The translations under genes were made by a program, and so were the position numbers. Shown one piece after another: positions 2,988 through 18,890 of a stretch of 20,822 nucleotides of DNA. Origin of the DNA: a virus; IMG/VR virus record IMGVR_UViG_3300005827_000039, positions 1 through 20,822 of that record. The stretch is one strand, 5' to 3'. Each line of letters starts with the position of its first letter. Position 1 is the first letter of the stretch. The notes under the pieces are model-generated. The model did no database searches. It saw nothing but the letters and a program-made list of their open reading frames with translations, and had not been told where the DNA came from.

Positions 2988-3004
2988 ATCGCACCCCCTA
3001 CGAT
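2988..3004 (-). promoter_or_regulatory. G5-loop hairpin in the 162-aa gene leader (copy A)
   Basis: On the minus strand ATCGT-AGGGGGT-GCGAT forms a 5-bp stem (one wobble) with a 7-nt loop of the same sequence as in the capsid leader. It ends 16 nt before the ATG at 2971. The 13-nt core AATCGTAGGGGGT differs by one base from the capsid copy. Confidence 0.55.
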
Positions 3005-3013
3005 TTCGTTTTA

Positions 3014-3021
3014 CAAATATA
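3014..3021 (-). promoter_or_regulatory. TATATTTG box before the 162-aa gene
   Basis: TATATTTG on the minus strand lies 9 nt after the 771-aa gene stop and 9 nt before the G5 hairpin. It fits a Bacteroidetes -7 box, but no -33 TTG/TTTG sits at the usual distance. It may allow separate expression of the appendage and lysis genes. Confidence 0.35.
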
Positions 3022-3030
3022 TAACAATTT

Positions 3031-5346
3031 TTAATTAAAATTTGCGAAAGTACAATTTTCGATAAAACTAGGTAAATCAATTTCGTTCTCAAAATCTTCA
3101 AAAGTGAAACTTGCATAATCACTACAACTCATTTCAGGTGTTACTCTATTTAATCCTGCTTTTAAACATTTAAAATGTACCTCCTCATTATTAGGATTAT
3201 ATTTCATTGACCAAATCCAACACGGTATAGCATCGCCATTATCATCTATAATAGTTATGTATCCATTTCGTTTTTGTGAATTACGACCAGTTAATGAATT
3301 TTTAATTAACTCAATTGTAGTTTTTGATAGTCGCTTTTTAAAGTTGTACCAAATAGGAATATAAAGGGCGGCACGTTCGCCAAATTCCGAAAGTGTAATA
3401 TCGTCATTTTCTACTAATGTATTAATACCGTTATTTGTCGAAGCATTACCATTTAATTCATACGTTGTATTATATATTTTTTCGGTATCGCCTTTAAAAA
3501 AAACAGAACTATTAATAAATTCTCTCCAATTTTCTAAATTTCTTCTCGGCGTGATTCTTAAATTTTTACGTGTTTCAGGAGATAACATATTATAACCAAT
3601 AAAACCGCCGTTTGACGTATTTTCAGATGTATAACTATTACCCGAACTAACAACGGCATTTATAAATAAATCCTCGTCAAATGTTCCACTTTCTTTTCGA
3701 GTCTCATCAGTCGATCCAACCCCTGTTATTGGTATCCTTCTCATGTATTCATATGCGTACCCTGAACTAACCAATTTAGATATTAATACAAGTGCCTTTT
3801 TATTTGTTTTTATTGGTGTTGAAAATATAAGTTGAGTATTTGTTTCATCTCTGTATTGCCCTGCTTCTTTTAAAAATTTATCGTAACCTATATTTATTTC
3901 ATTAAAAAGATATTCAGTTGCCGTTGATGTTTCTAAATCATTTACATAACCTAAGTTAATAATTTGTATTGGATTGAAAAAATAATCCAAACGTTCAAAT
4001 ACTATTTTTTGTACTCCATTTATGTATTCATAACCAATACCTATGCCAAAAATAGCTTGTAATGATGTAAATAAATCATTTGCAGAAATTGACATTTTTA
4101 ATTTGTTACTATCACTTAAACGAACCATTAAACCAGTAGATAATAAGTAATTTTTATTAGTATCTGTAAACGTATTTGAAACTATGCAATCATTTTGGCT
4201 TGTTATTGTTTCACATAATGATTTTATTGAATCATATATCAACACGCCTTTTGTTAATGTATCTGAAACAGTTATATATTGTATTATTTCAATTGCTTTA
4301 GTTGTTTCAATAGAAGATGTATATGTATAATTAATTCGTTGAGTAATATTAGGAGTCGATATATTACCACATGAAGCTATACAACTAATTGTAAAATAAT
4401 CACCATTATAAATATCAATATTATGAATACTTTGACCAGTAGTTATTTCTAATAAATTATTTCCAATAAAATCGTTAAAACTACTTATATGTAGATTATT
4501 TATTTCTATAAAACCGCAACCTACAACCTCTCTATACGTTCCCTTAGCAACATTACCATTATCATAATGTATTACATATAATGCAAAAACCATCCCTTCC
4601 GGACGTGGAGGAACTGGTGGTTTATAATTTACTGAAAAATTTATTTTAATATTAATTTTTAAATCAAATCCTAAATAGACACGATTTTCAGGTATTACAA
4701 ATTCTAAAAATTTAATACCATAACTAGGCCCATCAATTTCACTAAAACTAGAAGCTGTATAGCAATTAAAAGTATCTGTTTCAGCTGTATTTAATTCGGG
4801 TGTAAATATAATAGAACTTACTCCATAATTTGTTCCACTGATTGAATCAAAATCATTATTATTTACTATTAAACTATTTTCAATCGCCTGTGATAAAGCA
4901 GTCATATCTTTTAAAACAATTGATGTTTTAGTCACACCATCCAAACTAATTGAACTTAACAAATCAATTTTAGTATCTAATCTCGAATTAACCAAATCGT
5001 TAAATCCTGAATTACTTAACGTAGCCGAAACAACTCCATCGATTAATTTATAACCAGAATTTAAATTTAATTTACCTTTGTATTCTAAAACTTCATTGTC
5101 GTAATAATTTACAAATATTTCGCCATCACTACCTGCATTTGAATACGTTTCTAAAATCTTATCTACTCCATGATCAACGGCAAACATTAATTGAATGTCT
5201 CCATCTGTATACTGATAATTAACACCGAAATACTTTTCGTCTCGATCTAAAACAAATGTTACTTTATCCCAGTTTATAGGCTCACGAATATCAATCGTTT
5301 CATCAACTGTACCGTATTTATAATTTAATTCAAATCGTTTTGCCAT
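3031..5346 (-). CDS. Tail tip / baseplate protein following the tape measure
   Basis: 771 aa, the first gene after the tape measure, where distal tail and hub (Tal-like) proteins are encoded. The N-terminal 130 residues (MAKRFELNYKYGT, then INWDKVTFVLDRDEKYFGV) are beta-rich, followed by a long section with repeated strands and an abundance of S, T and N. A further mixed alpha/beta region (about 380-620) contains LQAIFGIGIGYEYINGVQ. The C-terminal part has an AALYIPIWYNFKKRLSKTT region and a final acidic tail. No signal peptide or clear enzyme motif is seen. It is likely to form the tail tip or the base for receptor-binding proteins. Its ATG overlaps the tape measure stop by one base. Confidence 0.7.
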   Translation of the reverse strand: MAKRFELNYKYGTVDETIDIREPINWDKVTFVLDRDEKYFGVNYQYTDGDIQLMFAVDHGVDKILETYSNAGSDGEIFVNYYDNEVLEYKGKLNLNSGYKLIDGVVSATLSNSGFNDLVNSRLDTKIDLLSSISLDGVTKTSIVLKDMTALSQAIENSLIVNNNDFDSISGTNYGVSSIIFTPELNTAETDTFNCYTASSFSEIDGPSYGIKFLEFVIPENRVYLGFDLKINIKINFSVNYKPPVPPRPEGMVFALYVIHYDNGNVAKGTYREVVGCGFIEINNLHISSFNDFIGNNLLEITTGQSIHNIDIYNGDYFTISCIASCGNISTPNITQRINYTYTSSIETTKAIEIIQYITVSDTLTKGVLIYDSIKSLCETITSQNDCIVSNTFTDTNKNYLLSTGLMVRLSDSNKLKMSISANDLFTSLQAIFGIGIGYEYINGVQKIVFERLDYFFNPIQIINLGYVNDLETSTATEYLFNEINIGYDKFLKEAGQYRDETNTQLIFSTPIKTNKKALVLISKLVSSGYAYEYMRRIPITGVGSTDETRKESGTFDEDLFINAVVSSGNSYTSENTSNGGFIGYNMLSPETRKNLRITPRRNLENWREFINSSVFFKGDTEKIYNTTYELNGNASTNNGINTLVENDDITLSEFGERAALYIPIWYNFKKRLSKTTIELIKNSLTGRNSQKRNGYITIIDDNGDAIPCWIWSMKYNPNNEEVHFKCLKAGLNRVTPEMSCSDYASFTFEDFENEIDLPSFIENCTFANFN

Positions 5347-8048
5347 TATACTAGAGAATTTTGTTTCTTAATATTATTCTTTAATGTATTTTTTTGACGT
5401 GTGTATTCTTGATATCCCTTTTCGTTCCATATTTGAATCGGTTGTGGCATTTCTGCGATACGTTTACCAACTTCTTGACCTATTAATTTTTCGTCAATTT
5501 TCATTGATGAAATTAAGTGTTTAACCTCAATCATTCGAGCATTTTCCATTGTAACCGAAAGACTATCGTTTATCGACTGATTTTTTAAATATGCAGCATT
5601 ATCAATTGTTTTTAAAATATTTTGTGTTTCGAATGCTGTTTTTACCTTATCTCCTTTTTGCAGATTAACGATTTGATTTCGTTTCGTTGGTAAATATGCT
5701 TTATCCTTTCTAATAATCATTTCTTGAAAATTCGAACCGCTACCATCGTTTACTATTGCCAAACCTTCGGGGGCGTTTTCTGTTCCTTTTTCAAATCGCG
5801 GTAAGGGTTGCGAAGCTACGACAGCAGCCTGTGCCCCAGCAACACCCACAGAAATAGCAGTCAATGCACCAGCTACATAAGGTAATTCTCCCCATTTCGC
5901 CCAAATTGAGGAGATCGATTCAGCTAAGTTAATAGCTATATTAAATAATGCTGCGTTTCTTTCAGCTTCAGCGGCTTGTCGTTTTTGATCTTTTATTTGA
6001 TTATTAAATTTTGTTTCTTCGGTTGCTTTATCTCGTAAGTATCTTTTTTCTATTTGTTTTTTTGCGGCTGCATTATTACCGGCGGCTTCAATATCTGCAT
6101 TATATTTATCGGTTAATGATTGAATTGCTACATCTTTTTCATTGGTTAAATTATCAATATTAGCTTGTATGTTTATTTTTTGTATTTCAAAAAGCGAATT
6201 TGCAATTGATACAGCACCGTCAAAACTAGCTTTTTGAATTTCTTCTTTCGCTTCTTTTTTTTTATTCTCTAATTCAATAGCCCTCTCAAGTTCTTCTTTC
6301 GCTTCTACTTCTGATTTTGTTTTCTTTTTTTGATATATTTTTTCCTCTCTATCTTCTTTTTCTTTGTCTAATTTAGCGTTCGCATCTGCTTTTTCTTTTA
6401 ATAATTTAGTATAAAAATCTTTTTCGTCTTGTAAATCTTTTTCAAGTTGATTTTTATATTTTGTTTCAATATCATATGCTTCTTTTGTAGCCTTTTCTGT
6501 AGCCTCTAATTTAGCTTTTCTTATTTCTTCTTCAAACCCTGACAATTTTGATATGTTGCGTTTATTTTCTGAAAAATATTTAGTATCTGCATCAATAGTT
6601 TTTGCATATAGTTCTTCTAACTGTTTAAATTTATCTTCGTTGTTTTCTCGAACTAATTTAATTGAACTTTTTGCATTTTTTTGTTCTTCGTCCGATAATA
6701 ATAAAAAGTCTTTAATTTCTTTTGCAGTTACCTTATTTCTAGAATCACTTTTTGCAGCTAAATAATTTAATTCATTGTTTAGTTTATCATCAGCGAATTT
6801 TTTTTCTTGTAATACTTCTTCTTCACTTATCTTTAAAGCCTCTTTTAAAAACTCACGTCTTTTTTCAACACTATTTTCTTTATTTGCCGCTTCAAATTCT
6901 AATTTGGCAATTTTATTTGCATTTTCAGCACGTTTAGAAATATAATTATCTTCTGAATCATTTAATTTATCAACAGCATAAGCATATTCGTATGCTGCTT
7001 TTGTAGCGTCTTTTAATTGGGCTGAAATGCCTGTAAAAGCTTCTTTAAATGCTTCTGTACTTTCTTGCCAATTACCTTTAAAAAATTCTATTAATCCATT
7101 TGCTACACCTACTATTCTTTGCCTAAATACATCAATAATTGCGCTGAGTTGTTCAAATCTTGCAGCCATCTCCGTCGCACCCGAATCCGTTGAAGTGAAT
7201 GCCTTATATAATAATACAAAAACCCCTACTATTGCGGCAACAAATGCAACAATAGGATTTGCGAGTAATGCTAAAAACGATTTTCTTACATTTTGAACTC
7301 CTGATACTGCGTTACTTAATGGGGTTGGTAATGCTTCAAATGCACTAGAATAATTACCAACATTTCGAGTATAAACACCCATACCAGCATCCATCTTCTT
7401 TAATGCCTTATCGGAATTTTCAATATTTTTTGCTAAAGCAACAGCCTCTTTATTACCCTTATTTAAAGCTCCTGTATTTTTATCAAAAGCATTTGGCATA
7501 TTTTTTAACTGATTTTTCATATCAGTTAAATTTTTGCTTAATCCTGCATAACTATTAGTAACTGTATCTGTATTTTTTTTTGCGTCTGAAAGTATTTTCT
7601 TTTGCAAAGTTAACTCAGAACTAACATCTTTAATAGATTTAATTAAAGGATCAACAACCGCTTTATTTTCTCTTTCTGCCGCTGACAATGATTTATATTC
7701 GTCCTCTAATTGTTTTGCCTTATTCGTCAATCCTTGCATAGAATCTTCTGCAACCTTAACAGATTTATTTGCATTGTCTACATTTTCCTTAACTGTTTTA
7801 AATCGTTCGCTTGTTTTTTCTAGCTGGGTATCTAACTTCTTAAGATTATCTATATCATTCGCCTCTGATACCGATTTTTTATATCCGTTTACTTCATTTT
7901 TAAGCGTAGTAAATTCGGCTTGTAGTGTTGATGACAGTTGTTTTATGCTGTTTGCAAATGAAATTGTTAATTTTTCTACTTCTACAATACTTGCTTTATA
8001 CGCGTCGAAATCAAATAACTCGGTATGCTTAATTGCTGAATCTGACAT
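5346..8048 (-). CDS. Tail tape measure protein
   Basis: 900 aa, the typical long helical ruler of siphophage tails. Coiled-coil-rich regions fill about 20-220 and 360-700 (many E/K/Q heptads such as KEKADANAKLDKEKEDREEK). Two hydrophobic segments, about 257-283 (SFLALLANPIVAFVAAIVGV) and 722-747 (GALTAISVGVAGAQAAVVAS), fit membrane-active parts used in DNA entry. The C-terminal FEKGTENAPEGLAIVNDG motif is common in tape measures of Bacteroidetes phages. With the rule of about 0.15 nm per residue, the tail would be roughly 130-140 nm. The gene overlaps the next ATG by one base. No lytic domain is evident. Confidence 0.92.
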   Translation of the reverse strand: MSDSAIKHTELFDFDAYKASIVEVEKLTISFANSIKQLSSTLQAEFTTLKNEVNGYKKSVSEANDIDNLKKLDTQLEKTSERFKTVKENVDNANKSVKVAEDSMQGLTNKAKQLEDEYKSLSAAERENKAVVDPLIKSIKDVSSELTLQKKILSDAKKNTDTVTNSYAGLSKNLTDMKNQLKNMPNAFDKNTGALNKGNKEAVALAKNIENSDKALKKMDAGMGVYTRNVGNYSSAFEALPTPLSNAVSGVQNVRKSFLALLANPIVAFVAAIVGVFVLLYKAFTSTDSGATEMAARFEQLSAIIDVFRQRIVGVANGLIEFFKGNWQESTEAFKEAFTGISAQLKDATKAAYEYAYAVDKLNDSEDNYISKRAENANKIAKLEFEAANKENSVEKRREFLKEALKISEEEVLQEKKFADDKLNNELNYLAAKSDSRNKVTAKEIKDFLLLSDEEQKNAKSSIKLVRENNEDKFKQLEELYAKTIDADTKYFSENKRNISKLSGFEEEIRKAKLEATEKATKEAYDIETKYKNQLEKDLQDEKDFYTKLLKEKADANAKLDKEKEDREEKIYQKKKTKSEVEAKEELERAIELENKKKEAKEEIQKASFDGAVSIANSLFEIQKINIQANIDNLTNEKDVAIQSLTDKYNADIEAAGNNAAAKKQIEKRYLRDKATEETKFNNQIKDQKRQAAEAERNAALFNIAINLAESISSIWAKWGELPYVAGALTAISVGVAGAQAAVVASQPLPRFEKGTENAPEGLAIVNDGSGSNFQEMIIRKDKAYLPTKRNQIVNLQKGDKVKTAFETQNILKTIDNAAYLKNQSINDSLSVTMENARMIEVKHLISSMKIDEKLIGQEVGKRIAEMPQPIQIWNEKGYQEYTRQKNTLKNNIKKQNSLV

Positions 8049-8064
8049 GGTAATATTAATTAAG

Positions 8065-8078
8065 CAGCCCCCTTGCTG
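8065..8078 (-). promoter_or_regulatory. G5-loop hairpin in the tape measure leader (copy B)
   Basis: On the minus strand CAGC-AAGGGG-GCTG makes a 4-bp stem with a G-rich loop, ending 16 nt before the ATG at 8048. It shares CAAGGGGGCTG with the tail tube leader. If the TATATTTG box at 8083-8090 is used, the RNA would begin at or inside this hairpin. Confidence 0.55.
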
Positions 8079-8082
8079 AATG

Positions 8083-8090
8083 CAAATATA
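8083..8090 (-). promoter_or_regulatory. TATATTTG box before the tape measure gene
   Basis: TATATTTG on the minus strand begins directly after the lipoprotein stop codon (TAG, 8093-8091) and lies 34 nt before the tape measure ATG. It matches the Bacteroidetes -7 box, but no TTG/TTTG is present 17-23 nt upstream. A G5 hairpin follows 4 nt later. Confidence 0.35.
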
Positions 8091-8516
8091 CTAAAGTTTA
8101 CAAAAATATGGATTCATTTTTATTATTTTAAAATGAATATTATATTCAGATATAAATATTTCTTTACATAATAAACCCTTTCGAATATTATTTATAACTA
8201 AATAAACTTGAACAGCACACGTACATTTTTCAGTTGTATATAAATTAATTTCAAGTCTTTCATCAAAATTAAATCTAAAAACCTCTATATTACGCTTTGT
8301 TGTATCTATTTTTAATAATTTTTGTTCTTTAGTATAATTATTGTTTATACTACCAACCCAAACAGGATAAGTATATTTTAATTTATTTATAACAATCTCA
8401 AATGTACTATCGACTTTTACATTTTCTTTAATAGTTGATTTTTTTTCTACTTCAATATTTTCTTTATTGCACGAAAATATAGTAACTAATACGATTAATA
8501 AAATTAATGTTTTCAT
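8091..8516 (-). CDS. Putative lipoprotein encoded among tail genes
   Basis: 141 aa. The N-terminus MKTLILLIVLVTIFSC has a hydrophobic core and a lipobox (IFSC, lipidated Cys16) followed by NKEN, giving a probable signal peptidase II substrate anchored in a cell membrane. The mature protein is Lys/Asn/Ile-rich with four further Cys (the CTC pair at about 98-100, one near 117 and one near the end) that could form disulfides. It is separated on both sides by the clearest gaps in the tail region: an AT-rich 73-nt spacer upstream (8517-8589, no promoter or hairpin recognised) and a TATATTTG plus G5 hairpin downstream. A phage lipoprotein could block superinfection, as with T5 Llp, but that is inferred. 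Confidence 0.75.
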   Translation of the reverse strand: MKTLILLIVLVTIFSCNKENIEVEKKSTIKENVKVDSTFEIVINKLKYTYPVWVGSINNNYTKEQKLLKIDTTKRNIEVFRFNFDERLEINLYTTEKCTCAVQVYLVINNIRKGLLCKEIFISEYNIHFKIIKMNPYFCKL

Positions 8517-8589
8517 TTTTATAATTATTAAATGTTTATTAAAGATAATAAAAAATTTAATTAATTATTATTATTTTATATAAAATTTA

Positions 8590-10179
8590 TTAAGCTGGTG
8601 GTTCTGGATACCCAAGTCTACGAACCCAATAACCTAGAGTTAAATTCCCAGTTATTATGTTTGCAGATGTTCTAAATTTAAAAGTTAAAAGTTCAAAATT
8701 TGTTATGCCTAAAGATGCAAACTCCCAGCTATCCATAATATAAGTTTTACCTGTATTGAATGATGGACTAGATTTTACAAACGTGCCGTTGTAGTATATC
8801 TCCATCCATCCATCCATCCCACCAGATATATTAACAACTTCGACATAAATAAATATTCTTTCGGTAAAAAAATCTCCATATATTATTTGACCTACAAAAG
8901 ACGCATACTGATCTGATGCAGCGCCACCTGAATTTGTTATATAATAAGGTGTCCCATCTGTATTTAATATATCCGAAACTCTATACGGTACAAGTTCACA
9001 TGGATAAATAGTATTTGCGTCTGCATATGCTTGGGCGTCTGCGTCTATATTTGCATCTGCTATATTATTCGCGTCGTCTTGACTTATTTCGCTTGTATAT
9101 ATTTTAGTAAATGAAGTTGCGATGTCTGGGTATCTATTAGGTGGACAATTACCTTTAAATTTACTTGTTGTACGTGTTGCCGTATATTCAATTGGTGGTG
9201 GACAATCACAATCACCATATAAGTTAGCCTCTGCTTGACCCTCTGTTTGAAATACTGCATTGTCAGCATTCTTTTTATCGATTGCGTCTTGTTGGGAAAT
9301 GTAACTAGTATATGTTTTAGTGTAATCGATATGCGAAGGAACACAACCAACTTCACAATTATTTCTTGTAAATGTTACTGTTCTTGTTTCTGAATATATT
9401 GTAATTGCTACCGTTGTACTAGTTTCGGCTGTTTTATCAGTTACGAACGAATCTAACCACATTTCAAAACTACTTGAATTTTCGTCAATCTTAACACCTG
9501 TTTTAAAAGTTAAATACTCGTCATTTATTATAATTGTATCGTGCGAAAGTACAACAGATAAGGCATCGTCAAATTGTTTATCTTTGTAAAGCGAATTGAA
9601 CTTAATCCAATAGAACATTTTACCCTTATAATTCTTAATCAAATCGGTTGTACTTTCTCGATATTGGTCGATTTGATAATCTGGTTGGCGATCAACTTCA
9701 ATAATTGGTAAACGAAATTGATTATAATATGAAGTGTTGCCACTATATGCGAATTGGTAAAAGTCGGTATTATGTTTATATTTTAATGTCGATGAATATT
9801 TTTCAAAGTCTGAACGTGGGACGAAAATAGTGTTAGATATTAGTATAATTAACCCATCAAATGATAAACCTAAACGATATGATCCTACGTTTACATTTGG
9901 ATTTGTCACCTCACAATAACAGTAATCAGTTGAGTCTATTTTAGTAATAGTCCCAATCGAAGTACCTATTTTTGCAAATGTTGAAGCATTTATTAAAAAA
10001 ATTTCATCGATATCGTTTGTTATTCCTGTATTAATTAAAAATTTCGTTTGCTCTCCAACAGCCATAAATATACACGCTGGTTGTTTAAGTTCAGTATTCA
10101 GCATTGGGAATTGTAAATCGTCTACAATATCGTTCAATGTGTACCAACGTAAGAAGCTGTATTTATTTATTGCTGCCAT
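8590..10179 (-). CDS. Tail or surface protein with two DUF5977-like repeats
   Basis: 529 aa. Residues 1-260 are beta-rich and structural-looking. Two repeats follow at about 265-324 and 333-394, each with a start like TFTRNNC, a YTSYISQQDA / YTSEISQDDA core and an A/D/N-rich end closing with Cys; this is the pattern of DUF5977 repeats in Bacteroidetes surface and phage proteins. The C-terminal 130 residues look like a beta-sandwich (IFIYVEVVNISG, MEIYYNGTFVKS), perhaps glycan-binding. The gene lies between the chaperones and tape measure, so it may be a minor tail protein or adhesin. A GGAT tetranucleotide repeat in codons 454-461 makes the C-terminal domain a possible site of slippage. Confidence 0.7.
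   Translation of the reverse strand: MAAINKYSFLRWYTLNDIVDDLQFPMLNTELKQPACIFMAVGEQTKFLINTGITNDIDEIFLINASTFAKIGTSIGTITKIDSTDYCYCEVTNPNVNVGSYRLGLSFDGLIILISNTIFVPRSDFEKYSSTLKYKHNTDFYQFAYSGNTSYYNQFRLPIIEVDRQPDYQIDQYRESTTDLIKNYKGKMFYWIKFNSLYKDKQFDDALSVVLSHDTIIINDEYLTFKTGVKIDENSSSFEMWLDSFVTDKTAETSTTVAITIYSETRTVTFTRNNCEVGCVPSHIDYTKTYTSYISQQDAIDKKNADNAVFQTEGQAEANLYGDCDCPPPIEYTATRTTSKFKGNCPPNRYPDIATSFTKIYTSEISQDDANNIADANIDADAQAYADANTIYPCELVPYRVSDILNTDGTPYYITNSGGAASDQYASFVGQIIYGDFFTERIFIYVEVVNISGGMDGWMEIYYNGTFVKSSPSFNTGKTYIMDSWEFASLGITNFELLTFKFRTSANIITGNLTLGYWVRRLGYPEPPA
8801..8819 (-). repeat. Tetranucleotide repeat (GGAT)4-GGA in a coding region
   Basis: On the minus strand GGAT is repeated four times and followed by GGA, inside the DUF5977 gene, coding for GMDGWME. 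The unit is not a multiple of three, so gain or loss of one copy would shift the frame and remove or alter the C-terminal 70 residues. The tract is short, and no other tetranucleotide tract was noticed in the window. Confidence 0.7.
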
Positions 10180-10519
10180 GCTTTTTATATTTTTTTTCTA
10201 AAACTTCGATTCTATTATAAAATTCAAAGATAGTTAAATTTTCCGTTTTCATATTGTTTTGCTCTAACTGTATTAACATATCACTTAACCGTTTGTCATT
10301 CTTAACAATCTCATTTTTTGGTAGCGCTGGGTGCAATATTAGGGGTTTACTTTGTTCAATAAAGTATTCATTAACTACTTGCATTTGCTCTAAAAAATTA
10401 GCATTGTCGGGATCGTTTATTAATTCACATTTAATAATTAAGTACTGCTTATAATATTCCAAACCATGATTAACGCCGCCAAACCATTTTGGAAAATAAA
10501 TTTTTAGTTCTGAATTAAG
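10163..10519 (-). CDS. Tail assembly chaperone, T-like domain made by frameshift
   Basis: This frame has no ATG; its only near start is a TTG at 10462. Read in the -1 frame from the slippery site it gives 118 residues (LNSELKIYFPKWFGGVNHGL, then EYYKQYLIIK and so on), continuous with the G-like protein, for a fusion of about 247 aa. The region between the slippery site and the TTG reads as plausible protein, which supports the fusion over an independent gene. The domain is helical and ends in a basic tail (EKKYKKHGSNK). In lambda the GT fusion binds the tube protein through T while G binds the tape measure. The end overlaps the next gene by 17 nt. Confidence 0.7.
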   Translation of the reverse strand, partial: LNSELKIYFPKWFGGVNHGLEYYKQYLIIKCELINDPDNANFLEQMQVVNEYFIEQSKPLILHPALPKNEIVKNDKRLSDMLIQLEQNNMKTENLTIFEFYNRIEVLEKKYKKHGSNK

Positions 10520-11488: not shown

Positions 11489-12033
11489 TGTGAATCTGAA
11501 TAAATTACAGTTACATCGAATCGAAAACAAAAGAAAGGGAACATGTAATACTGTGTATTTTTATCATCAATAGTATATCCATCGAAAACCGTTTCTGCTT
11601 TTTCATCTACAAAACTATTTATTTTTTTTACTTCATACACTTTTGACAGTTCGTTTTCAATTTCTATTTTCAGTTGTTCGGTTGTTTTGCCAATCTCTTT
11701 GATGTTTCCTGAAAAAGTTATTCGCAAATCCCTTGTTTTCATTTTTGAGGTAACTTTAAAAATGCTCAAATATGTTTCGTTTGATATAACTGAAATGAAT
11801 GATTGACTTGCGAAATTATCATTTGGTAAAACATTGTAATAGTCTCCATCTGATTGTAGAATCTTTGGTTTTTTTACTGTTTTATTATCGTACGTTTCAT
11901 TAAATGTAATCGCACGACCAAAAGATTTTTGCAACCAATCCAATGATTGCATCTGTAGTTGTATAGCTTGTATTGGTACTTCGATACCCACAGGCGAATC
12001 TATAATACAAATGTCGGGTTGTTTATAACTCAT
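11482..12033 (-). CDS. Possible tail terminator / neck protein
   Basis: 183 aa, soluble. A beta-strand and helix pattern (LRITFSGNIKEIG, then TTEQLKIEIENELSKVYEV, then FFCFRFDVTVIYSD) is compatible with the small alpha/beta fold of tail terminator proteins, which cap the tail tube and join it to the neck. The position between a gp10-like gene and tail assembly chaperones supports this, but there is no diagnostic motif. The stop TAG at 11484-11482 overlaps the ATG of the next gene. Confidence 0.5.
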   Translation of the reverse strand: MSYKQPDICIIDSPVGIEVPIQAIQLQMQSLDWLQKSFGRAITFNETYDNKTVKKPKILQSDGDYYNVLPNDNFASQSFISVISNETYLSIFKVTSKMKTRDLRITFSGNIKEIGKTTEQLKIEIENELSKVYEVKKINSFVDEKAETVFDGYTIDDKNTQYYMFPFFCFRFDVTVIYSDSQC

Positions 12034-12424
12034 TTCTAAAGTCTTTAATTATGTCAGGTTTAATAAATTCTCCTATATTTTTTACATCTTCTTTTGACAA
12101 AGATAAAATATTTTCGCCAAATTGTGTTACTAACTTTTCTGTTTTAGAATCGGTTGCGTTCATTTCGAAGTACTCCCCATAATTTTTGGGCGCGATAGAT
12201 TTTCGATACGCGCCTGTTAATTTTAAATCTATTGGTTCGAATCTATTTTTATAATTAAAGTCTTTATACTTTCCTAAAGAAGCCCCTTTACCATCTTCGC
12301 CTTTGTCGTAGTGTTTTGTCAATTGGTCGGAAATGTAATCCGAATTACTTTCAACAGCGCGACCAATGATACTATTGATATCGACTTTGCTTAGCCTTTC
12401 AGTAAAGAAATTTTCTTTAATCAC
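12023..12424 (-). CDS. Putative head-tail connector / tail completion protein
   Basis: 133 aa. The segment IDLKLTGAYRKSI (about 74-86), in a short protein with a helical N-terminus, resembles the conserved TGxLxxS-type core of HK97 gp10-like neck proteins. The position, after the 372-aa gene and before a possible tail terminator, fits. The family match is weak because it rests on one motif and on order. The gene overlaps its upstream neighbour by 8 nt and its downstream neighbour by 11 nt, so translation is probably coupled. Confidence 0.6.
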   Translation of the reverse strand: MIKENFFTERLSKVDINSIIGRAVESNSDYISDQLTKHYDKGEDGKGASLGKYKDFNYKNRFEPIDLKLTGAYRKSIAPKNYGEYFEMNATDSKTEKLVTQFGENILSLSKEDVKNIGEFIKPDIIKDFRNEL

Positions 12425-13535
12425 GGGATTTATATTTTATTTTCAAAGCGTTATTTTGACAAGGTAAACACAATTGATTTATATCACTAGTTCCATAGTT
12501 GATTGCTTTGACGGCTTTTTCAAGTTCTTTTTTTACTCCATTAGTTTCGTCACCTAATGCAATAAATGCCATTTGAACCAATTTTTCTCTTAATTGATTA
12601 TCGCGATTCGAGTATGCAATTTCGTTTAAAAAGTCAACAGTCAATTGTTTCCCTAATGCATCCCTGAATAATTCTTTGTTTCTACAAAAAAGCCCCGAAA
12701 GATCACAGATTACAGATATTTGTAAGTTCAAACCAAAATTAGTATTGTTTATATATACTTCGCTTTCTGTAGTCCATTTGGTTTTATCATTATTCAAATT
12801 ATCTATGTCAACATAAAACGATTGTAAATTAACAAATTTACTCCATGATTGAAAAAGATTGTAATTGACAGGTGAACAACTATTACAAGCTGGTGATACT
12901 GTTAGGTTATTATCTCGGTAAATAGCTTGACCAATTAAATCGCTTTCGTAATAACCGATATAGTAGCTACCTTTTATTTCAGGTAAAATTTGAGTTGCAA
13001 TCGTAAACCATGAAAATGAAACTGCTTTATTGTGAATAATATCAATTGTTCCGATAGGTTCTAATTTTGATGTATGATAAACGTATAGTTTAAAATTAGG
13101 GTTTAATTCAGTCAACTGCAATCCTATTGATTTAATCATTAATGATAAATCTGACTGTATCATATCAATTTTAAAACCAACAAAACGATTTTGCTTAATT
13201 ATTTTATTTAAAAAGTTTCCCGAACCTTCGTATAATCTAACTTCGCTCAATAATTCTTTAGAATTTTCATTTAATTGTTTAGCTGTATAAATATTATCAA
13301 TAAGTTTCTCAATTGAATTAATACGCTTCTTTCGTAAATAATCACTAAAATTTGCATTTTTCGGGGCGCAATTATGTAGATTTTCGGTTGTTAATAATGG
13401 GTGCAATTGTTGAATATTACGACCTCCAACACCAGTTAAAATATTAGTTGCCAATGTTGGATAGTCTGAATTAGTTGTTTGTTCATACCCGAACAGATTT
13501 TCGAAACAACTTGTTACTATACTTTGATTTATCAT
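12417..13535 (-). CDS. Conserved neck-region protein of unknown function
   Basis: 372 aa from the ATG at 13535 (MINQSIVTS). A TTG at 13565 would extend the frame by ten codons, but it lies in the loop of the terminator hairpin, so it is rejected. The gene follows the capsid block and precedes probable neck and tail completion genes, a place that suggests a connector, adaptor or minor structural role. Visible features are a charged helical N-terminal third and a middle beta-like domain (KLYVYHTSKLEPIGTIDIIH). Two close Cys pairs, CNSC (about residue 220) and CLPC near the C-terminus, could bind metal or form disulfides. The 3' end overlaps the next gene by 8 nt. I do not recognise the family. 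Confidence 0.72.
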   Translation of the reverse strand: MINQSIVTSCFENLFGYEQTTNSDYPTLATNILTGVGGRNIQQLHPLLTTENLHNCAPKNANFSDYLRKKRINSIEKLIDNIYTAKQLNENSKELLSEVRLYEGSGNFLNKIIKQNRFVGFKIDMIQSDLSLMIKSIGLQLTELNPNFKLYVYHTSKLEPIGTIDIIHNKAVSFSWFTIATQILPEIKGSYYIGYYESDLIGQAIYRDNNLTVSPACNSCSPVNYNLFQSWSKFVNLQSFYVDIDNLNNDKTKWTTESEVYINNTNFGLNLQISVICDLSGLFCRNKELFRDALGKQLTVDFLNEIAYSNRDNQLREKLVQMAFIALGDETNGVKKELEKAVKAINYGTSDINQLCLPCQNNALKIKYKSRD

Positions 13536-13544
13536 ATCGTTTTT

Positions 13545-13586
13545 AATTAAAAAAGCCTCAAACAAAATTAATCATTTGAGGCTTTT
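13545..13586 (-). terminator. Intrinsic terminator before the 372-aa gene
   Basis: A perfect 12-bp stem, AAAAGCCTCAAA at 13551-13562 and TTTGAGGCTTTT at 13575-13586 on the plus strand, with a 12-nt loop. On the minus strand it ends in TTTTTTAATT. This is the strongest terminator in the window. It lies between the exported protein gene and the ATG at 13535 and would limit transcription into the neck and tail genes. Confidence 0.8.
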
Positions 13587-13593
13587 GTTTGCA

Positions 13594-13601
13594 CAAATAT
13601 A
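13594..13601 (-). promoter_or_regulatory. TATATTTG box after the 161-aa gene
   Basis: TATATTTG on the minus strand, 3 nt after the stop codon of the exported protein gene, fits the Bacteroidetes -7 box. No -33 TTG/TTTG is found at 17-23 nt spacing. The terminator hairpin at 13545-13586 follows at once, so any transcript starting here would meet it immediately. Confidence 0.25.
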
Positions 13602-13604
13602 CAA

Positions 13605-14090
13605 TTATTTTGCTTTAAAATACGCTCCTACATAATCAGGAAACGTAATTGTCGAACTTGCCGGCCGGTACTGCTTAAAATTGTAGAAATTGTACTTATC
13701 CGAAGTTGTTACTGAAAATATAAATGTAGTATCGATAGTAGTCGCAGTTACATTATACACTTTTACACCAATATCCGTCCACGCATCGTTTCGAAATTTC
13801 TTACCTTGTAATTTCATATTGACCGCCCCAACTGGACTATTATAAGGCGAACCGTTTGTGGTTTTACCTTTCGTAATTTTGTAAGTAAAATCGTAAACTA
13901 ACTGATATGGTATTTTCCCACCATCGATTTCAATAGGTAAATTCCATATACTATCGTTAACAGATACAGAATCTTTGATGTCTCCATCGTAATAAGTTGA
14001 ATACCTGTCAACCGTAATAGGTTTAACACTTTGCGAATAAACTTGTAGCGAAACAAAAACAATCGCTATTAAAAAAATTATCTTTTTCAT
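13605..14090 (-). CDS. Exported protein encoded beside the capsid gene
   Basis: 161 aa. The N-terminus is a clear Sec signal peptide: MKKII, a hydrophobic core (FLIAIVFVSL) and a likely cleavage site VYS-Q at about residues 19-20, a form common in Bacteroidetes. The mature part is beta-rich (YQLVYDFTYKITKGK, VNMKLQGKKF, TTFIFSVTTSDKYNF) and resembles a small sandwich domain. It should be exported, although its neighbours are cytoplasmic assembly proteins. The gene is bracketed by two terminator hairpins, 14112-14146 and 13545-13586. It could be a moron that alters the cell surface, or a virion protein that keeps a signal peptide. The family is not recognised. Confidence 0.75.
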   Translation of the reverse strand: MKKIIFLIAIVFVSLQVYSQSVKPITVDRYSTYYDGDIKDSVSVNDSIWNLPIEIDGGKIPYQLVYDFTYKITKGKTTNGSPYNSPVGAVNMKLQGKKFRNDAWTDIGVKVYNVTATTIDTTFIFSVTTSDKYNFYNFKQYRPASSTITFPDYVGAYFKAK

Positions 14091-14111
14091 TTTGTTCTAT
14101 TTTTTTTGGTT

Positions 14112-14146
14112 AAAAATTGTTCGGGTAGCTATTACACTACCCAAAC
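14112..14146 (-). terminator. Intrinsic terminator after the capsid gene
   Basis: On the minus strand GTTTGGGTAG, an 8-nt loop and CTACCCGAAC form a 10-bp stem with one T-G wobble, starting 4 nt after the capsid stop. AATTTTTA follows. This is a good intrinsic terminator and would make capsid mRNA more abundant than the message for downstream genes. No promoter is evident before the next ATG at 14090, so some read-through or antitermination is needed. Confidence 0.7.
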
Positions 14147-14150
14147 GAAA

Positions 14151-15182
14151 TTATGCGTTATCAGTCATTGGAACAACTACTTTTATAATACTTGAAGTAG
14201 TATCAGACGAGAATTGTGTTAACCACGCGAACTCAGTATAAAACTCGTATGTAGTTAAATAATTAGTTACATTACCAACTTTAACACAAGTAATACGTTC
14301 GTGAACTCCCCATTTAATACCGAAGATCGGATCTTGCCATACATATTTTTTGTCGCTATCATTTAGCTTCATATTCATACGTGACTCCCAGTCTACATAG
14401 TTGTAAATACCCAAACCGCCCTCAGGAGCAAAATAGTGAATTGCTTTGTTACCATCCAATGCAAGGCGTTTTGTAATAAATCCATTGAATACACCAGCAC
14501 CATACAGAGAACCGTCTACAACCCCTGCGAAGTTTTGGTTATTTCCCATTGCTAAAGTACGATACTCTAGCATTTTGGATTGTTCTTCTAAGTTAGAGAT
14601 ATCGTTCAAAACTCCGTTTATATCATTCATTCCAACGATCGAAGGTATGTCAATGTATAAACGATTTTTGTCGTATTGATCACGACTATAAACATACGCG
14701 CCATTTGCAATAGTTGCAAGTGTTGACGATGCTAATGCAACGTTTCTACGTGTTTCAAGAATACCCAACGATTGAGTATCTAACCATTCGCCAATTCCTT
14801 TTAGATTACCAATCAATTTTTGTGCAAATTCTTGGTCTTTCGTGATATAATTACCGGCGTTTACAGCTTCATTGATTTGAATTTTAAAACCTTTAGGCAC
14901 GTATGCCAATGTTTGAAACTGTGATGTAGCATCTTCCGAAGTAAACGAACATTCTTGACCTGTGATTAAATCCGCTGCCTGTTTGTTTAGAACTGGAATT
15001 TGTTGTGGACGTGTTGCAAGGTCTTTTGTTCCATCTAATAAAGATGCTGGAAGCAACATTTCAGAATTATTTTGAAACGCTTTAAATGCGCCAACTTCTG
15101 ATACTCTGTTTTCGAAGTTTTTTGCATACTGGTCTGTCGCCTGTATAATGGCTGCCAGTTTTTCTGTTGATGTTAATGACAT
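14151..15182 (-). CDS. Major capsid protein
   Basis: 343 aa, the shell subunit of the head, presumably HK97-fold. The call rests on position after a scaffold and portal, on size, and on a soluble mixed alpha/beta sequence with a long helix-like N-terminal third, a middle helix region (QKLIGNLKGIGEWLDTQSLG) and a beta-rich C-terminus (YLTTYEFYTEFAWLTQF). It starts directly at MSLTSTEK with no long cleavable N-terminal delta-like domain, in agreement with a separate scaffold. The translation start shares AAAATGTCATTAACA with the tail tube gene, consistent with very high expression in a host that favours A-rich, SD-less starts. A terminator hairpin follows the stop. Confidence 0.8.
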   Translation of the reverse strand: MSLTSTEKLAAIIQATDQYAKNFENRVSEVGAFKAFQNNSEMLLPASLLDGTKDLATRPQQIPVLNKQAADLITGQECSFTSEDATSQFQTLAYVPKGFKIQINEAVNAGNYITKDQEFAQKLIGNLKGIGEWLDTQSLGILETRRNVALASSTLATIANGAYVYSRDQYDKNRLYIDIPSIVGMNDINGVLNDISNLEEQSKMLEYRTLAMGNNQNFAGVVDGSLYGAGVFNGFITKRLALDGNKAIHYFAPEGGLGIYNYVDWESRMNMKLNDSDKKYVWQDPIFGIKWGVHERITCVKVGNVTNYLTTYEFYTEFAWLTQFSSDTTSSIIKVVVPMTDNA

Positions 15183-15192
15183 TTTGTTTTTT

Positions 15193-15221
15193 GGTTAAGA
15201 TTGTTTATAATTTTCTTAACC
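15193..15221 (-). promoter_or_regulatory. Second hairpin directly before the capsid gene
   Basis: A perfect 8-bp inverted repeat: on the minus strand GGTTAAGA, a 13-nt loop, then TCTTAACC, ending 10 nt before the capsid ATG. It is followed by an A-rich run, not T, so it is not a terminator. It could shield or expose the start region, or mark an RNA processing site. Its first three bases overlap the G5 hairpin. Confidence 0.4.
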
Positions 15222-15235
15222 GCACCCCCTGCGAT
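15219..15235 (-). promoter_or_regulatory. G5-loop hairpin in the capsid leader (copy C)
   Basis: On the minus strand ATCGC-AGGGGGT-GCGGT forms a 5-bp stem with one wobble pair and a 7-nt loop containing five G. It begins at the last base of the scaffold stop codon and lies 36 nt before the capsid ATG. The core AATCGCAGGGGGT occurs again at 15308-15320 and, with one change, before the 162-aa gene. Its last three bases are shared with the next hairpin, so the two structures compete. Confidence 0.55.
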
Positions 15236-16128
15236 TATTTTCTTGTAAAGCCGTGAGCAATGCTTTCGGCTCTCAATTTGTCCATACCTAATTTTGTATT
15301 TAAATCAACCCCCTGCGATTTTAAGTGTTCGATTAAGTCGGCATGTGTTTTGTGTGTTACTGTTTTGTCATCTGTTTTTTGTTGACGACCACCAGCACCA
15401 CCATTGTTTCTATTTTCTTCTTTAGCGACCAAAACAGCATTTCTTTGAACCATTAATTCAAATGCTGTCAATGGCTTTCCATCAGTTTCAGAAACAATTG
15501 GTTTTCCGTTTTGAATGTAGATAATATTCCCCTCATTATCTTCACTCGCTTCAACGCTTCGCATATCCATACGTATCAATGATTTCGATTTTGCAATGAA
15601 CTCATTAATTTCGTTTTCTGTTTTGAGGCTCGAAGGTAATGCTATGTTTATTTTGTCAAGCCCTTTATCAATATCAGTCATTTTATTTTTTTCAAAATAA
15701 CGTGACTTTATTTCTGTAAGTGCTTGTTCTTTTTCTGCTTTTACAACTTCGATTTGTTTTGTTAGCGCATCTAATTGACCTTTAATTAAAGGGTCTTGGC
15801 TTTTCTGCATAACAACGTCAATCGCTCTTTTATTGTATTCATAAGTTTTTTCGTCCTGGCTAAGTTTTGCAACGCCTGTTTTTTCGAAGATTTCAGCATC
15901 CAAACGATCGTATATTTTACGAATTTTTGGTTTAATTACTTCTTCTTCATGTTGTTCTTTTAATTTAGAAATATGATTATCATAATCACTTTTCGAATTA
16001 ACAACATAACCTTTCGATGTCAAAACAGGAATTACCTGTTCTGTTATCGGTTCTTGAAATTTTGTTATAATATCGTTCAACAATTGAGGGTTCGTCCCTA
16101 CCTCGGTTTGTATTTCTTCGATTGTCAT
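15235..16128 (-). CDS. Putative capsid scaffold protein
   Basis: 297 aa immediately upstream of the major capsid gene, the standard place for a scaffold. The protein is highly charged and mostly helical, with coiled-coil-like stretches at about 50-80 and 112-150 (KQIEVVKAEKEQALTEIKSR). A flexible Gly/Asn-rich linker follows (ENRNNGGAGGRQQ, about 238-250), then a short basic helical C-terminus (AESIAHGFTRK), fitting a scaffold that binds the capsid through its tail. No protease motif is seen, and no separate prohead protease is encoded nearby. The TAA at 15237-15235 touches the G5 hairpin of the capsid leader. A 13-nt copy of that hairpin's core lies within this gene at 15308-15320. Confidence 0.75.
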   Translation of the reverse strand: MTIEEIQTEVGTNPQLLNDIITKFQEPITEQVIPVLTSKGYVVNSKSDYDNHISKLKEQHEEEVIKPKIRKIYDRLDAEIFEKTGVAKLSQDEKTYEYNKRAIDVVMQKSQDPLIKGQLDALTKQIEVVKAEKEQALTEIKSRYFEKNKMTDIDKGLDKINIALPSSLKTENEINEFIAKSKSLIRMDMRSVEASEDNEGNIIYIQNGKPIVSETDGKPLTAFELMVQRNAVLVAKEENRNNGGAGGRQQKTDDKTVTHKTHADLIEHLKSQGVDLNTKLGMDKLRAESIAHGFTRK

Positions 16129-16130
16129 AA

Positions 16131-16409
16131 TTAATTTTTAGGATTGTGTAATTCAGTTATTTTATAAGGTTCTAAAATTTTGTTTTTAATTAATTCTGCA
16201 TACTTGCCAACTGTATATGGCATAATCGACAGTGTTGCTGGATCTTCTACTTCGGCTTTCGATGGAAGGGTAAAAGTCATTACTTGACGAACAACAACGC
16301 AATTTTTCCACGTTATATCAAGTTTGTACTCTTCTTTTTTGTCGAGATTACCGTAAAAGAAATTTGCATTTTCTTTTTGTTCCAAATCTTTTAGTTTAGG
16401 TATTGGCAT
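16131..16409 (-). CDS. Small structural-operon protein of unknown function
   Basis: 92 aa, lying between portal and scaffold genes and overlapping the portal end by 14 nt; it ends 2 nt before the scaffold ATG. It has no membrane segment or signal peptide. The middle (ITWKNCVVVRQVMTFTLPSK) is beta-like and the C-terminal part (VGKYAELIKNKILEPYKITE) is helical. It may be a head accessory or assembly factor by position only. I do not recognise the family. Confidence 0.7.
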   Translation of the reverse strand: MPIPKLKDLEQKENANFFYGNLDKKEEYKLDITWKNCVVVRQVMTFTLPSKAEVEDPATLSIMPYTVGKYAELIKNKILEPYKITELHNPKN

Positions 16410-18072
16410 TTTCTTTAGTTTTAAGTTTATTTTGAACCATTAAATTTAATTCTGCTTTAATTTTTTCAATCTTAGTTTTGAATGGTAATTTACTCCCAAA
16501 ATTTTCAAGTTTCCCGAAAGTGTATTCAAATTCATCGACAAAGTTATAAAAGTTTGCCTTTAAAACAAATGATTCTTTGTCAGTTTCATTTATTCCTAAA
16601 TCTTTACACTCTTTTAATGAAAGTAAAGTATAAGGTTCGAGGCTCTTCATTATATTGATTCTATTGGCATCTATATAATTATTTTTGCTCTGTAAATAAT
16701 CAATAATATTTAATTTTTGAATTAATAAATAACTCGGCAACCCTGCAATTTTAGCATCGTTAAAGTCTTTTATTGCTTCTGAAATATTAATTAAATAAAA
16801 TGTAGTGCCGTATGATACTGAACTATCAATATAAAAATTTGAATATCTTAATCTACAAATTGTATCTATCAACCATTTTTCTGTCTGTTCAAAGTTTCGT
16901 GCAATCCAATTTAAAACATTTGTTTGCGTTTCTGTTTGACTTTCAATTTGGCTTTGATTAACGGCTTGGTTATTTGAAATCTTATTCTTTCCTGTTGCAC
17001 TCGCTAAAATGAAATTTCTTTGATCCTCACAAGATTTTGAATTAAATTCTAAGGATGGCACATCAACTTGGATTACTCCTGCTGGTGGAATTGTTAAAGC
17101 GTTTCCATCTCTAGGTGGTGGAACATCTAAATGCACACCCCAACCAATAGATTTATTAGTTTTACAAATCGGACATTCGTAGTAAGAACCTTTGTTTAAT
17201 TTAGATTTATTATAAACAAATCCATTTTCGCATCGATTTTGGTATTGGTCTTCAAACTGACATGGTTCGCCTTCATATCCCCATGTCCACGGATAAGACG
17301 AACTTAAATCTAAATTACCCTTAGCAATTACAGAAAACAAGTACCAATCCAAATGACTTAGTAACTGACTAATTGGCGAAATATCATCTTCCCAAATTTT
17401 CTTAACAGGACAGTATCCTAATGAATGGAATACTTCCGAAACAAAATAAAATTTATCCTTTTCTTTTATAAAAATTTTATAAGATATTTCATCAATGTAA
17501 ATAAACCTATCGCAATCTTTGAAAATGAAATATAAAACTTTATCTTCTTCTTTTGAAAAATCGATAATATCATCACTTTCAACTTTGTAAAAATACGGGG
17601 TCGGAATATTATTGTCAGATTGTTCCATCACTGGCATATCCACAACAATAAACGAACCTATTTCATACATCATACATTCGAAAACCTCTTTATGAAAAAA
17701 ATCTTTAATTTTTAAAGTTTTTTCATATTCTTTGAAATCTTCAAAAAACTTTTCATCAGAAAACTGAATGTCCTTAAATGAATCCTGAGCCTCAAAAACC
17801 TTTAGATACTCATCTTGAATCGCATCACACACCTCATTTGTTTTAATTGGAGTAGTTAGATGTTTTTCAAACTGAGTTTGTTTTGTTTTATCTTTTAAAA
17901 AAGATTTTACCCAGTCCAAATAATCAGTATAGTATGGCGATACGTCATCTTTACAAACAGCGATATCACAATGAAACTTTAACCGATTTTCGTGGTTAAT
18001 CGTTTTTTTTATGTTTACCGTTTGTTTCGGGTTTCTCAGTAATTCGAGTACTTGCTCGTTTGATAATGCCAT
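16396..18072 (-). CDS. Portal protein
   Basis: 558 aa. Portal subunits form the ring at one capsid vertex through which DNA passes and to which the neck attaches. The call rests on size, place between terminase and scaffold/capsid, and architecture: a mixed alpha/beta first half, a central segment rich in small and polar residues, and a long helical C-terminal part (NQSQIESQTETQTNVLNWIA at about 371-391 starts it, matching the clip/stem-helix region of portals). An odd feature is a Cys cluster at C271, C281, C300 and C303 (CPIC), which looks like an inserted zinc ribbon. The ATG at 18072 is the first Met of the frame and lies within the preceding small gene. The 3' end overlaps the next gene by 14 nt. 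Confidence 0.82.
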   Translation of the reverse strand: MALSNEQVLELLRNPKQTVNIKKTINHENRLKFHCDIAVCKDDVSPYYTDYLDWVKSFLKDKTKQTQFEKHLTTPIKTNEVCDAIQDEYLKVFEAQDSFKDIQFSDEKFFEDFKEYEKTLKIKDFFHKEVFECMMYEIGSFIVVDMPVMEQSDNNIPTPYFYKVESDDIIDFSKEEDKVLYFIFKDCDRFIYIDEISYKIFIKEKDKFYFVSEVFHSLGYCPVKKIWEDDISPISQLLSHLDWYLFSVIAKGNLDLSSSYPWTWGYEGEPCQFEDQYQNRCENGFVYNKSKLNKGSYYECPICKTNKSIGWGVHLDVPPPRDGNALTIPPAGVIQVDVPSLEFNSKSCEDQRNFILASATGKNKISNNQAVNQSQIESQTETQTNVLNWIARNFEQTEKWLIDTICRLRYSNFYIDSSVSYGTTFYLINISEAIKDFNDAKIAGLPSYLLIQKLNIIDYLQSKNNYIDANRINIMKSLEPYTLLSLKECKDLGINETDKESFVLKANFYNFVDEFEYTFGKLENFGSKLPFKTKIEKIKAELNLMVQNKLKTKENANT

Positions 18073-18217
18073 TTTCGAAGATGAAATTATTATCGTTTAT
18101 TTCCCAGTCATTAAATTTATGTTCAACTTGGTAGTTGAGTAATTTTTGGGCGTGTTCGATTTTAAAGTATCGATCAGCGCCCAAAGATTTACATTTAAAT
18201 TTTACAGTTGTTTCCAT
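17996..18217 (-). CDS. Small conserved phage protein of unknown function
   Basis: 73 aa from the ATG at 18217, which follows the tail tube stop (18222-18220) by 2 nt. A longer frame starts at 18244, but that would overlap the upstream coding end and adds an unlikely nine residues. The sequence is charged, with a pattern often seen in short phage proteins encoded beside portals (FKIEHAQKLLNYQ, then NNFIFENGIIKR). The last 77 nt overlap the start of the portal gene in another frame, a long overlap for this operon. No enzyme motif or membrane segment is visible. The role is unknown. Confidence 0.65.
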   Translation of the reverse strand: METTVKFKCKSLGADRYFKIEHAQKLLNYQVEHKFNDWEINDNNFIFENGIIKRASTRITEKPETNGKHKKND

Positions 18218-18219
18218 GT

Positions 18220-18858
18220 TTATGGATTGGTTACACTTGCCCATGTATAATCAGTCAATTTATATATTTCCAAATTATCGTCCCAGTCACGAGCTAGGTC
18301 CAATGAAAAATTATGTACGTTATCTGCTCCGTAACCTTCCGAACCTAATGATCCAGTTGCAACGTTATAAACAGGAATACCTTCAATATTCGAACCATTT
18401 TTAATACCAAAAATTCTCCCGTCGGTTGTTAAGAAGTATGCCCATAAATCAGTCGCCCCCGCCATTGGATATTTTGAATAATCCATTAAATTCTGCATTG
18501 CGATTTTTGTAGCACTTGAAATGTTATTCAATGTAGCTGTCATTGTAACAGATTTTTGACCTCTTACATTTCTTATACCGCCAATTGTAGAATTATCACC
18601 ACCACCAACAACGTCAAGTTCCGGGTTTGGAATAACTGGATTGGTCAAAGGTGGAGATAGCACACATTTTGTAGCATCTACTGCTGATAATAAAGGTGTT
18701 AACGTTGCTTTAAGCAGGATTGTTGTTGCTGTAAAACTTGGCGTTGTTTGTCTACGTTGAAAAATGATTTTTGCAATCTGATCAATACGTATCGGACAAG
18801 TTGTTTCGGGTACATTAGGAATTACGGCTGCGACAGGGCATTCGGTTGTTAATGACAT
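18220..18858 (-). CDS. Probable major tail (tube) protein
   Basis: 212 aa, soluble, without signal peptide or membrane segment. The central and C-terminal parts look beta-rich (VTMTATLNNIS, GRIFGIKNGSNIEG, HNFSLDLARDWDDNLEIYKL), and the size is typical of siphophage tube proteins. The leader carries a promoter-like box, a G5 hairpin and an A-rich initiation region whose sequence AAAATGTCATTAACA is shared exactly with the major capsid gene; that is expected for a protein made in many copies. Its place between large terminase and portal is unusual for a tube protein, so a decoration or head protein is an alternative. Cysteines near the N-terminus (C7, C21) are a visible oddity. The functional call is an inference. 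Confidence 0.5.
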   Translation of the reverse strand: MSLTTECPVAAVIPNVPETTCPIRIDQIAKIIFQRRQTTPSFTATTILLKATLTPLLSAVDATKCVLSPPLTNPVIPNPELDVVGGGDNSTIGGIRNVRGQKSVTMTATLNNISSATKIAMQNLMDYSKYPMAGATDLWAYFLTTDGRIFGIKNGSNIEGIPVYNVATGSLGSEGYGADNVHNFSLDLARDWDDNLEIYKLTDYTWASVTNP

Positions 18859-18875
18859 TTTATATTTTATATTTT

Positions 18876-18890
18876 GTCAGCCCCCTTGAC
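18876..18890 (-). promoter_or_regulatory. G5-loop hairpin in the tail tube leader (copy D)
   Basis: On the minus strand GTCA-AGGGGGC-TGAC forms a 4-bp stem with a 7-nt loop holding five G. It ends 17 nt before the ATG at 18858. The core CAAGGGGGCTG is identical to that of the copy before the tape measure gene. Similar hairpins precede the capsid and 162-aa genes. The G run is about 22 nt from the start codon, too far for normal Shine-Dalgarno pairing. The role is unknown. Confidence 0.55.

Follow-up and report, generated by a model that had tools for sequence, protein, structure and literature searches.

Four short hairpins with a G-rich loop, found in the leaders of virion genes on a viral DNA of 20,822 nucleotides (IMGVR_UViG_3300005827_000039, positions 1 to 20,822; this whole stretch is called the window), are most likely protein-binding RNA elements for translational control of these genes. 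They are read on the minus strand, which is the coding strand, and precede the genes for a tail-tube-like protein, the major capsid protein, the tape measure and a protein of 162 amino acids (aa). In related phages a hairpin with a 9-nucleotide (nt) loop, usually AAAGGGTAA, occurs in the leaders of the tail-tube (212-aa), scaffold-like and capsid genes, and its stems covary.

Hairpins of the window

The four hairpins had been noticed in a first-pass annotation, and their sequences and spacings were confirmed. All share the 7-nt loop AGGGGGY, and the two sub-types proposed for it are real: AGGGGGC before the tail-tube and tape-measure genes and AGGGGGT before the capsid and 162-aa genes. The tail-tube hairpin GTCA-AGGGGGC-TGAC (18876..18890; this and all features with coordinates below are on the minus strand) stands 17 nt upstream of the start codon (ATG) in the 212-aa gene, and ATCGT-AGGGGGT-GCGAT (2988..3004) 16 nt upstream of that in the 162-aa gene. 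The tape-measure leader contains AGCA-AGGGGGC-TGCT (8063..8077). The capsid hairpin TAATCGC-AGGGGGT-GCGGTTA exists as described but occupies 15217..15237, of which the earlier span, 15219-15235, was only the inner part. It is 36 nt from the capsid ATG when measured from that first boundary, and its 5' arm runs into the stop codon of the scaffold-like gene. On the coding strand GGGGG occurs at exactly two further places (15309-15313 and 18456-18460), both within genes, as had been counted before.

A second hairpin of 8 bp, GGTTAAGA/TCTTAACC, at 15193..15221, separates the G-loop hairpin from the capsid ATG. Since GGTTA is used by both structures (15193-15237), their full forms are mutually exclusive, and the pair is a possible switch. 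The sequence AATCGCAGGGGGT recurs near the end of the scaffold-like gene (15303-15320). This repeat within the gene precedes the capsid copy by 84 nt and is also able to form a hairpin.

The expected frequency of such hairpins was estimated from 1,000 dinucleotide shuffles with gene coordinates fixed and with 60-nt leaders, which make up 7.2% of the window. The leaders contain four GGGGG-loop hairpins against 0.097 expected, and the maximum in the set of 1,000 shuffles was 3. Over the whole window there are five with at least 4 bp against 1.36 expected, while GGGGG runs themselves are not rare (7 on both strands, 6.1 expected). Because the motif was picked after inspection of the data these values are not strict P values, and the independent support for the window hairpins comes from relatives. 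Folding energies alone would have missed them: the z values of the leaders (-1.2, +1.1, -4.1 and -2.0) are unremarkable apart from that of the capsid leader.

The hairpin family in related phages

Searches with single proteins (capsid, portal) in phage and IMG/VR collections found no close relatives, and direct DNA patterns for the GGGGG forms gave in IMG/VR either nothing or one match inside an unrelated gene (L112). The window portal (phrog_7376) matches 75 phage records at 22-31% identity, from Bacteroides, Parabacteroides, Alistipes, Elizabethkingia, Croceibacter and Flavobacterium. A portal alignment search added 80 IMG/VR and 11 genome loci and later 80 more, many of them already in the set, and genome searches contributed another two prophages. 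The family tests were run on about 100 loci with a shared portal gene. The shared gene order is terminase, 212-aa gene, small open reading frame, portal, scaffold-like, capsid and tape measure. A distant prophage, G692 (L116), had no clear element.

The loop emerges from these loci without preselection of a motif. When the 5-mers at the centre of 9-nt loops closed by four Watson-Crick pairs were counted, AGGGT was by far the commonest on the coding strand (7.7%, against a base frequency of 0.87%), and the opposite strand showed no such excess. Pairing was then examined at sites selected on loop sequence alone. A perfect 4-bp stem is present at 78 of 103 leader sites, compared with 9/162 elsewhere on the coding strand and 0/54 on the reverse strand; swapping 3' arms among leaders left about 9.5 four-bp stems on average and 18 at most. 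The stems are varied, for example GGGC/GCCC, CGGGT/ACCCG, CGTG/CACG, GGTC/GACC, AATTC/GAATT and AGTAA/TTACT, and in a set of 78 distinct hairpins double changes are seen at each of the five pairs. The covariation score is 0.998 versus 0.211 +/- 0.026 and is lost when the alignment is slid by one column. A lack of compensatory stem changes, named in the first-pass annotation as an outcome that would refute the proposal, was thus not observed. The third G of the loop is invariant (109/109).

The other refuting outcome named beforehand, no enrichment before structural genes of related phages, did not occur either. Hairpins were counted in 45/65 capsid leaders, 36/76 tail-tube leaders and 31/71 scaffold-like leaders, where shuffles gave 4.5-4.9. 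A chance origin was rejected on this leader enrichment together with the stem pairing and covariation tests. Portal and tape-measure leaders showed no clear excess family-wide, and an apparent excess before the gene after capsid is at least partly due to terminator-like hairpins. CCC-loop hairpins, as would be expected of a complementary-loop partner in the form of a phage small RNA, gave no obvious excess. Outside prophages, the matches in host chromosomes appear to be due to chance, so that a host element was rejected.

A search of 1.5 Mb with a covariance model of the hairpin gave 116 matches scoring 18 bits or more. The three virion leaders account for 105 of them (50 at capsid, 32 at scaffold-like and 23 at tail-tube genes); as the model was trained on many of the same sites, this tally describes the distribution and is not an independent discovery. 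Two further matches lie directly before contig ends, where the capsid gene would come next, and another five are placed about 2.1-2.7 kb upstream of the tail-tube gene. For PDS1 and AS73P1 this upstream match falls in the leader of a gene for a small-terminase-like protein, the first of the late genes, and the match in TCUEAP2 is similar.

The products MN929097 gp43, AS73P1_00044 and TCUEAP2 gene 1 are homologous proteins of 225-227 aa encoded upstream of the large terminase, and the leaders of their genes have the hairpin. The PDS1 homologue carries the annotation 'RNA polymerase sigma factor'; sequence and location suggest that these proteins are the small terminase subunit.

Position in the leaders and possible functions

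The hairpin is placed differently in the different leaders. At the scaffold-like gene 31 phages have a stem that ends at -4 to +5 nt relative to the ATG, 15 of them with stem and ATG overlapping, and these stems are A+U-rich (23% GC). Stems of the capsid and tail-tube copies have 69-70% GC, with the loop at a median of 38-42 nt upstream of the gene start. A hairpin at the start codon, as in MS2, is thus seen in relatives at the scaffold-like gene and at neither their other genes nor those of the window. Conservation of the loop on a stem of free sequence indicates recognition by a protein, and the contact with the start codon indicates that translation is affected at the scaffold-like gene. 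Since copies are found both inside the operon and behind promoters, the element should act as RNA wherever the transcript starts. Within one phage the tail-tube and capsid loops are more alike than between phages, which suggests one lineage-specific reader.

The RNA hairpin of relatives, its covariation, gene set, strand and positions are established from the sequences, and from these features we infer protein binding, an effect on translation and the direction of that effect. Each hairpin would be a copy of one cis-acting RNA element, with a short stem of free sequence and a G-rich loop that is constant within a phage lineage. One trans-acting protein, more probably encoded by the phage than by the host, would read the loop and couple the translation of the bulk virion genes, namely tail tube, scaffold-like and capsid, and in the window also the tape measure and the 162-aa gene. 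At the scaffold-like gene of relatives, where a weak A+U-rich stem touches the start codon, binding should block initiation in an operator-like manner. At the capsid and tail-tube genes a protein bound to the G+C-rich upstream hairpin could either repress or help initiation. We consider the chances of such coupling by one trans-acting reader to be about even. The broader proposal is more tentative, with a little under an even chance: an RNA regulon would extend over a whole clade of tailed Bacteroidota phages, in which an undescribed phage RNA-binding protein reads the GGG-loop hairpin at the tail-tube, scaffold, capsid and some other virion genes and sets their relative translation, loop and reader co-varying by lineage.

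Promoter-like boxes are found next to some of the hairpins. Of 22 tail-tube leaders, 20 have a box of the type TAnnTTTG at 1-18 nt before the hairpin. In the window the box TATCTTTG (18915..18922) lies upstream of the tail-tube hairpin, and TATATTTG lies directly upstream of both the tape-measure (8083..8090) and the 162-aa hairpin (3014..3021), which follow their boxes by 6-10 nt. These copies would therefore be at the 5' end of an mRNA, as expected if the hairpin shields the 5' ends of late virion mRNAs or marks sites for nuclease trimming of a polycistronic transcript. Such a stability or processing element would not need a conserved loop sequence for stability alone, the stems at the scaffold-like gene are weak and A+U-rich, and a box is absent before all 29 scaffold-like hairpins (0/29) and before 36 of 40 capsid hairpins. 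It is unlikely to be the main function, although 5'-end stability could be a second role for the promoter-proximal copies.

A small hairpin with a conserved loop, promoter-proximal at the tail tube, is also reminiscent of nut/boxB sites, at which late transcription would be enabled to pass terminators. Some relatives have terminator-like hairpins after the capsid gene. Antitermination would leave the start-codon contact at the scaffold-like gene unexplained, and the presence of two or three copies within one operon makes it less likely still; judged from the placement of the copies, we regard this function as very improbable. Among the roles first listed for the hairpins, an RNA-protein operator of translation appears from the sequences to fit best, and both a nut-like site and a function purely in stabilising 5' ends appear to fit less well.

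Finally, the G-rich loop could be a Shine-Dalgarno (SD)-like sequence that pairs with the 16S tail, whether to provide a standby site or for the use of special late ribosomes. In principle the anti-SD could be paired by AGGGGGU, with one G-U, or over 6 nt by AAAGGG, and L092, the closest relative by portal, has AGGAGG; phage bS21 has been linked to late translation in Bacteroidota phages (PMC9723584). In Bacteroidia, however, the anti-SD is sequestered and SDs are ignored (PMC9976891). The third G is invariant though A would be the better anti-SD partner, a stable stem would impede pairing, and in relatives the capsid and tail-tube copies are some 26-50 nt away from the gene start (three window copies: 16-17 nt). 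Complementarity to the anti-SD about 5-10 nt before the ATG is not found for the window G runs, whose 3' ends are 19-22 nt from the ATG and 42 nt at the capsid gene, so the first-pass annotation was right that they are too distant for usual SD function. The loop is very unlikely to act in this way.

The motif TTAAC, often TTTAAC, is found at -40 to -11 of the tail-tube and capsid genes of relatives, in the interval between hairpin and ATG. It is present in 57 of 141 leaders against 9.9 expected, and it is absent before the portal gene and before the gene after capsid. In the window capsid leader TTAAC is inside the second hairpin (15193-15200).

Relation of the window hairpins to the family

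Several observations weigh against translational control by a common element. The hairpins before the capsid and tail-tube genes are too distant to block initiation directly, and the likeness of loops within one phage is partly due to shared descent. No GGG hairpin is present at the scaffold-like start in the window (before 16128), which is where the case for an operator is strongest; this copy is missing in many relatives too, being present in 31/71. Two covariance-model searches bear on membership: R1 had no match at any of the four window sites, and R2 matched three of them at E values of 1.2-6, which are not significant. By this test the window therefore falls outside the family. Together with a gene set in which the 162-aa gene is included and the scaffold-like gene is not, these searches are what would be expected if the four GGGGG hairpins were unrelated to the AAAGGGTAA family, as a private or chance feature of the window.

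Other comparisons link the window to the family. Its hairpins occur in both the tail-tube and capsid leaders, as in relatives, and can be written with a 9-nt loop that has GGG at positions 4-6 on a stem of at least 3-4 bp. In this register the loop is AAGGGGGCT at the tail-tube and tape-measure genes, with a 3-bp stem, and CAGGGGGTG at the capsid gene, with a 6-bp stem; the 162-aa copy, read by eye, becomes ATCG-TAGGGGGTG-CGAT. Three of the 13 best window matches of R2 coincide with the claimed hairpin sites, and chance alone is improbable by the shuffle test. Intermediate loops are found in matching leaders. A prophage from the family to which the Sphingobacterium genome belongs (L111) and its relative L117 have four hairpin copies each, before the tail-tube, scaffold-like, capsid and tape-measure genes, with the loops TACGGGACT, TAAGGGACT, TACGGGCCT or AACGGGAAA and the stems TCGC/GCGA, TAAG/CTTA, GCAAC/GTTGC and CAGC/GCTG. 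At the tape-measure gene of L117 ATCGAC/GTTGAT replaces CAGC/GCTG, a compensatory change. The loop TACGGGACT of L111 has the same CT end as AAGGGGGCT of the window, the tail-tube leaders of L024 and L154 have AGGGGGTTA loops, and that of L092 has TGCC-AGGGGAC-GGCA.

The window loops are thus best described as a diverged form, tied to the family by gene, position and intermediate loops, for which a series from AAAGGGTNA or TACGGGACT to AGGGGGY may be posited. The GGGGG loop emphasized at first is real in the window, but family-wide it is a variant of the 9-nt loop. Likewise, the tail-tube and capsid genes of the original gene set hold throughout the family and the scaffold-like gene joins them, but the tape-measure hairpin is matched only in the lineage of L111 and L117, and relatives showed nothing that corresponds to the 162-aa copy. 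Overall, the window copies very probably belong to the GGG-loop hairpin family, and an unrelated, private origin is correspondingly rather improbable.

Genes of the window

The gene for the 212-aa tail-tube-like protein (18220..18858) belongs to phrog_8193 and corresponds to MP2 of B40-8-like phages. Its predicted structure gave weak matches to tail-tube and related tail proteins (TM about 0.3-0.5), in agreement with the tail-tube identity assigned before and at odds with the PHROG label of the family, 'major head protein'. The major capsid protein gene (14151..15182; phrog_7231) corresponds to MP1. The scaffold-like gene (15235..16128; phrog_7970) has the start-codon hairpin in relatives and not in the window. 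The tape-measure gene is located at 5346..8048 and the 162-aa gene, without a family match, at 2483..2971.

Throughout the group a small conserved protein of 82 aa (FEIxHAERLL...NGGWxLP) has its gene between those for tail tube and portal, in the window at 17996-18244. It had no Pfam match. It was also considered as candidate reader of the hairpin; structure comparison gave no informative match.

Comparison with known systems and significance

Leader hairpins that control phage translation are of an established kind. In RNA phages (MS2/R17, Qbeta) the coat protein binds an operator in a single gene of a single-stranded RNA phage. The present element resembles that operator in being a short hairpin with a conserved loop and a largely free stem, at or near a start codon; it differs in serving several virion genes of tailed double-stranded DNA phages, in its 9-nt GGG loop, in its putative reader and in that most copies lie well upstream of the ATG. 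Phage P22 provides a case of autoregulation by a scaffolding protein. By analogy, a scaffolding protein of a tailed phage would here too be controlled after transcription, with the difference that tail-tube and capsid genes share the element; to our knowledge no repeated conserved hairpin is involved in P22. The lambda nut/boxB site is normally single and near the operon promoter. Like it and other phage antitermination RNAs, the present element is a small hairpin with a conserved loop, putatively read by a protein, yet it is repeated in one operon and touches a start codon.

In Bacteroidia ribosomes sequester the anti-SD, and AGGAGGU gave no gain in expression in wild-type cells (PMC9976891). 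An extended Shine-Dalgarno sequence is known for rpsU in Flavobacteriales (PMC9976891) and is similarly a G-rich leader sequence where host ribosomes otherwise ignore SDs. Unlike it, the phage element is structured, is mostly far from the start codon and has an invariant GGG that is not the best anti-SD partner.

No Rfam 15 family matches the hairpin sites, also at a permissive threshold, and no report of the element was found in a search of open-licence papers. A leader hairpin that covaries and recurs at several virion genes in a large group of tailed Bacteroidota phages therefore appears undescribed. Cultured phages from gut and marine sources (PDS1, TCUEAP2, P2559S) have relatives in this group. 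The search model, the short gene list and a loop usable as bait for the reader protein provide a concrete handle, and the hairpin could serve as a regulatory part in Bacteroides genetics. As Bacteroidota ribosomes work without Shine-Dalgarno pairing, the element bears on how their phages make virion proteins in large and balanced amounts.

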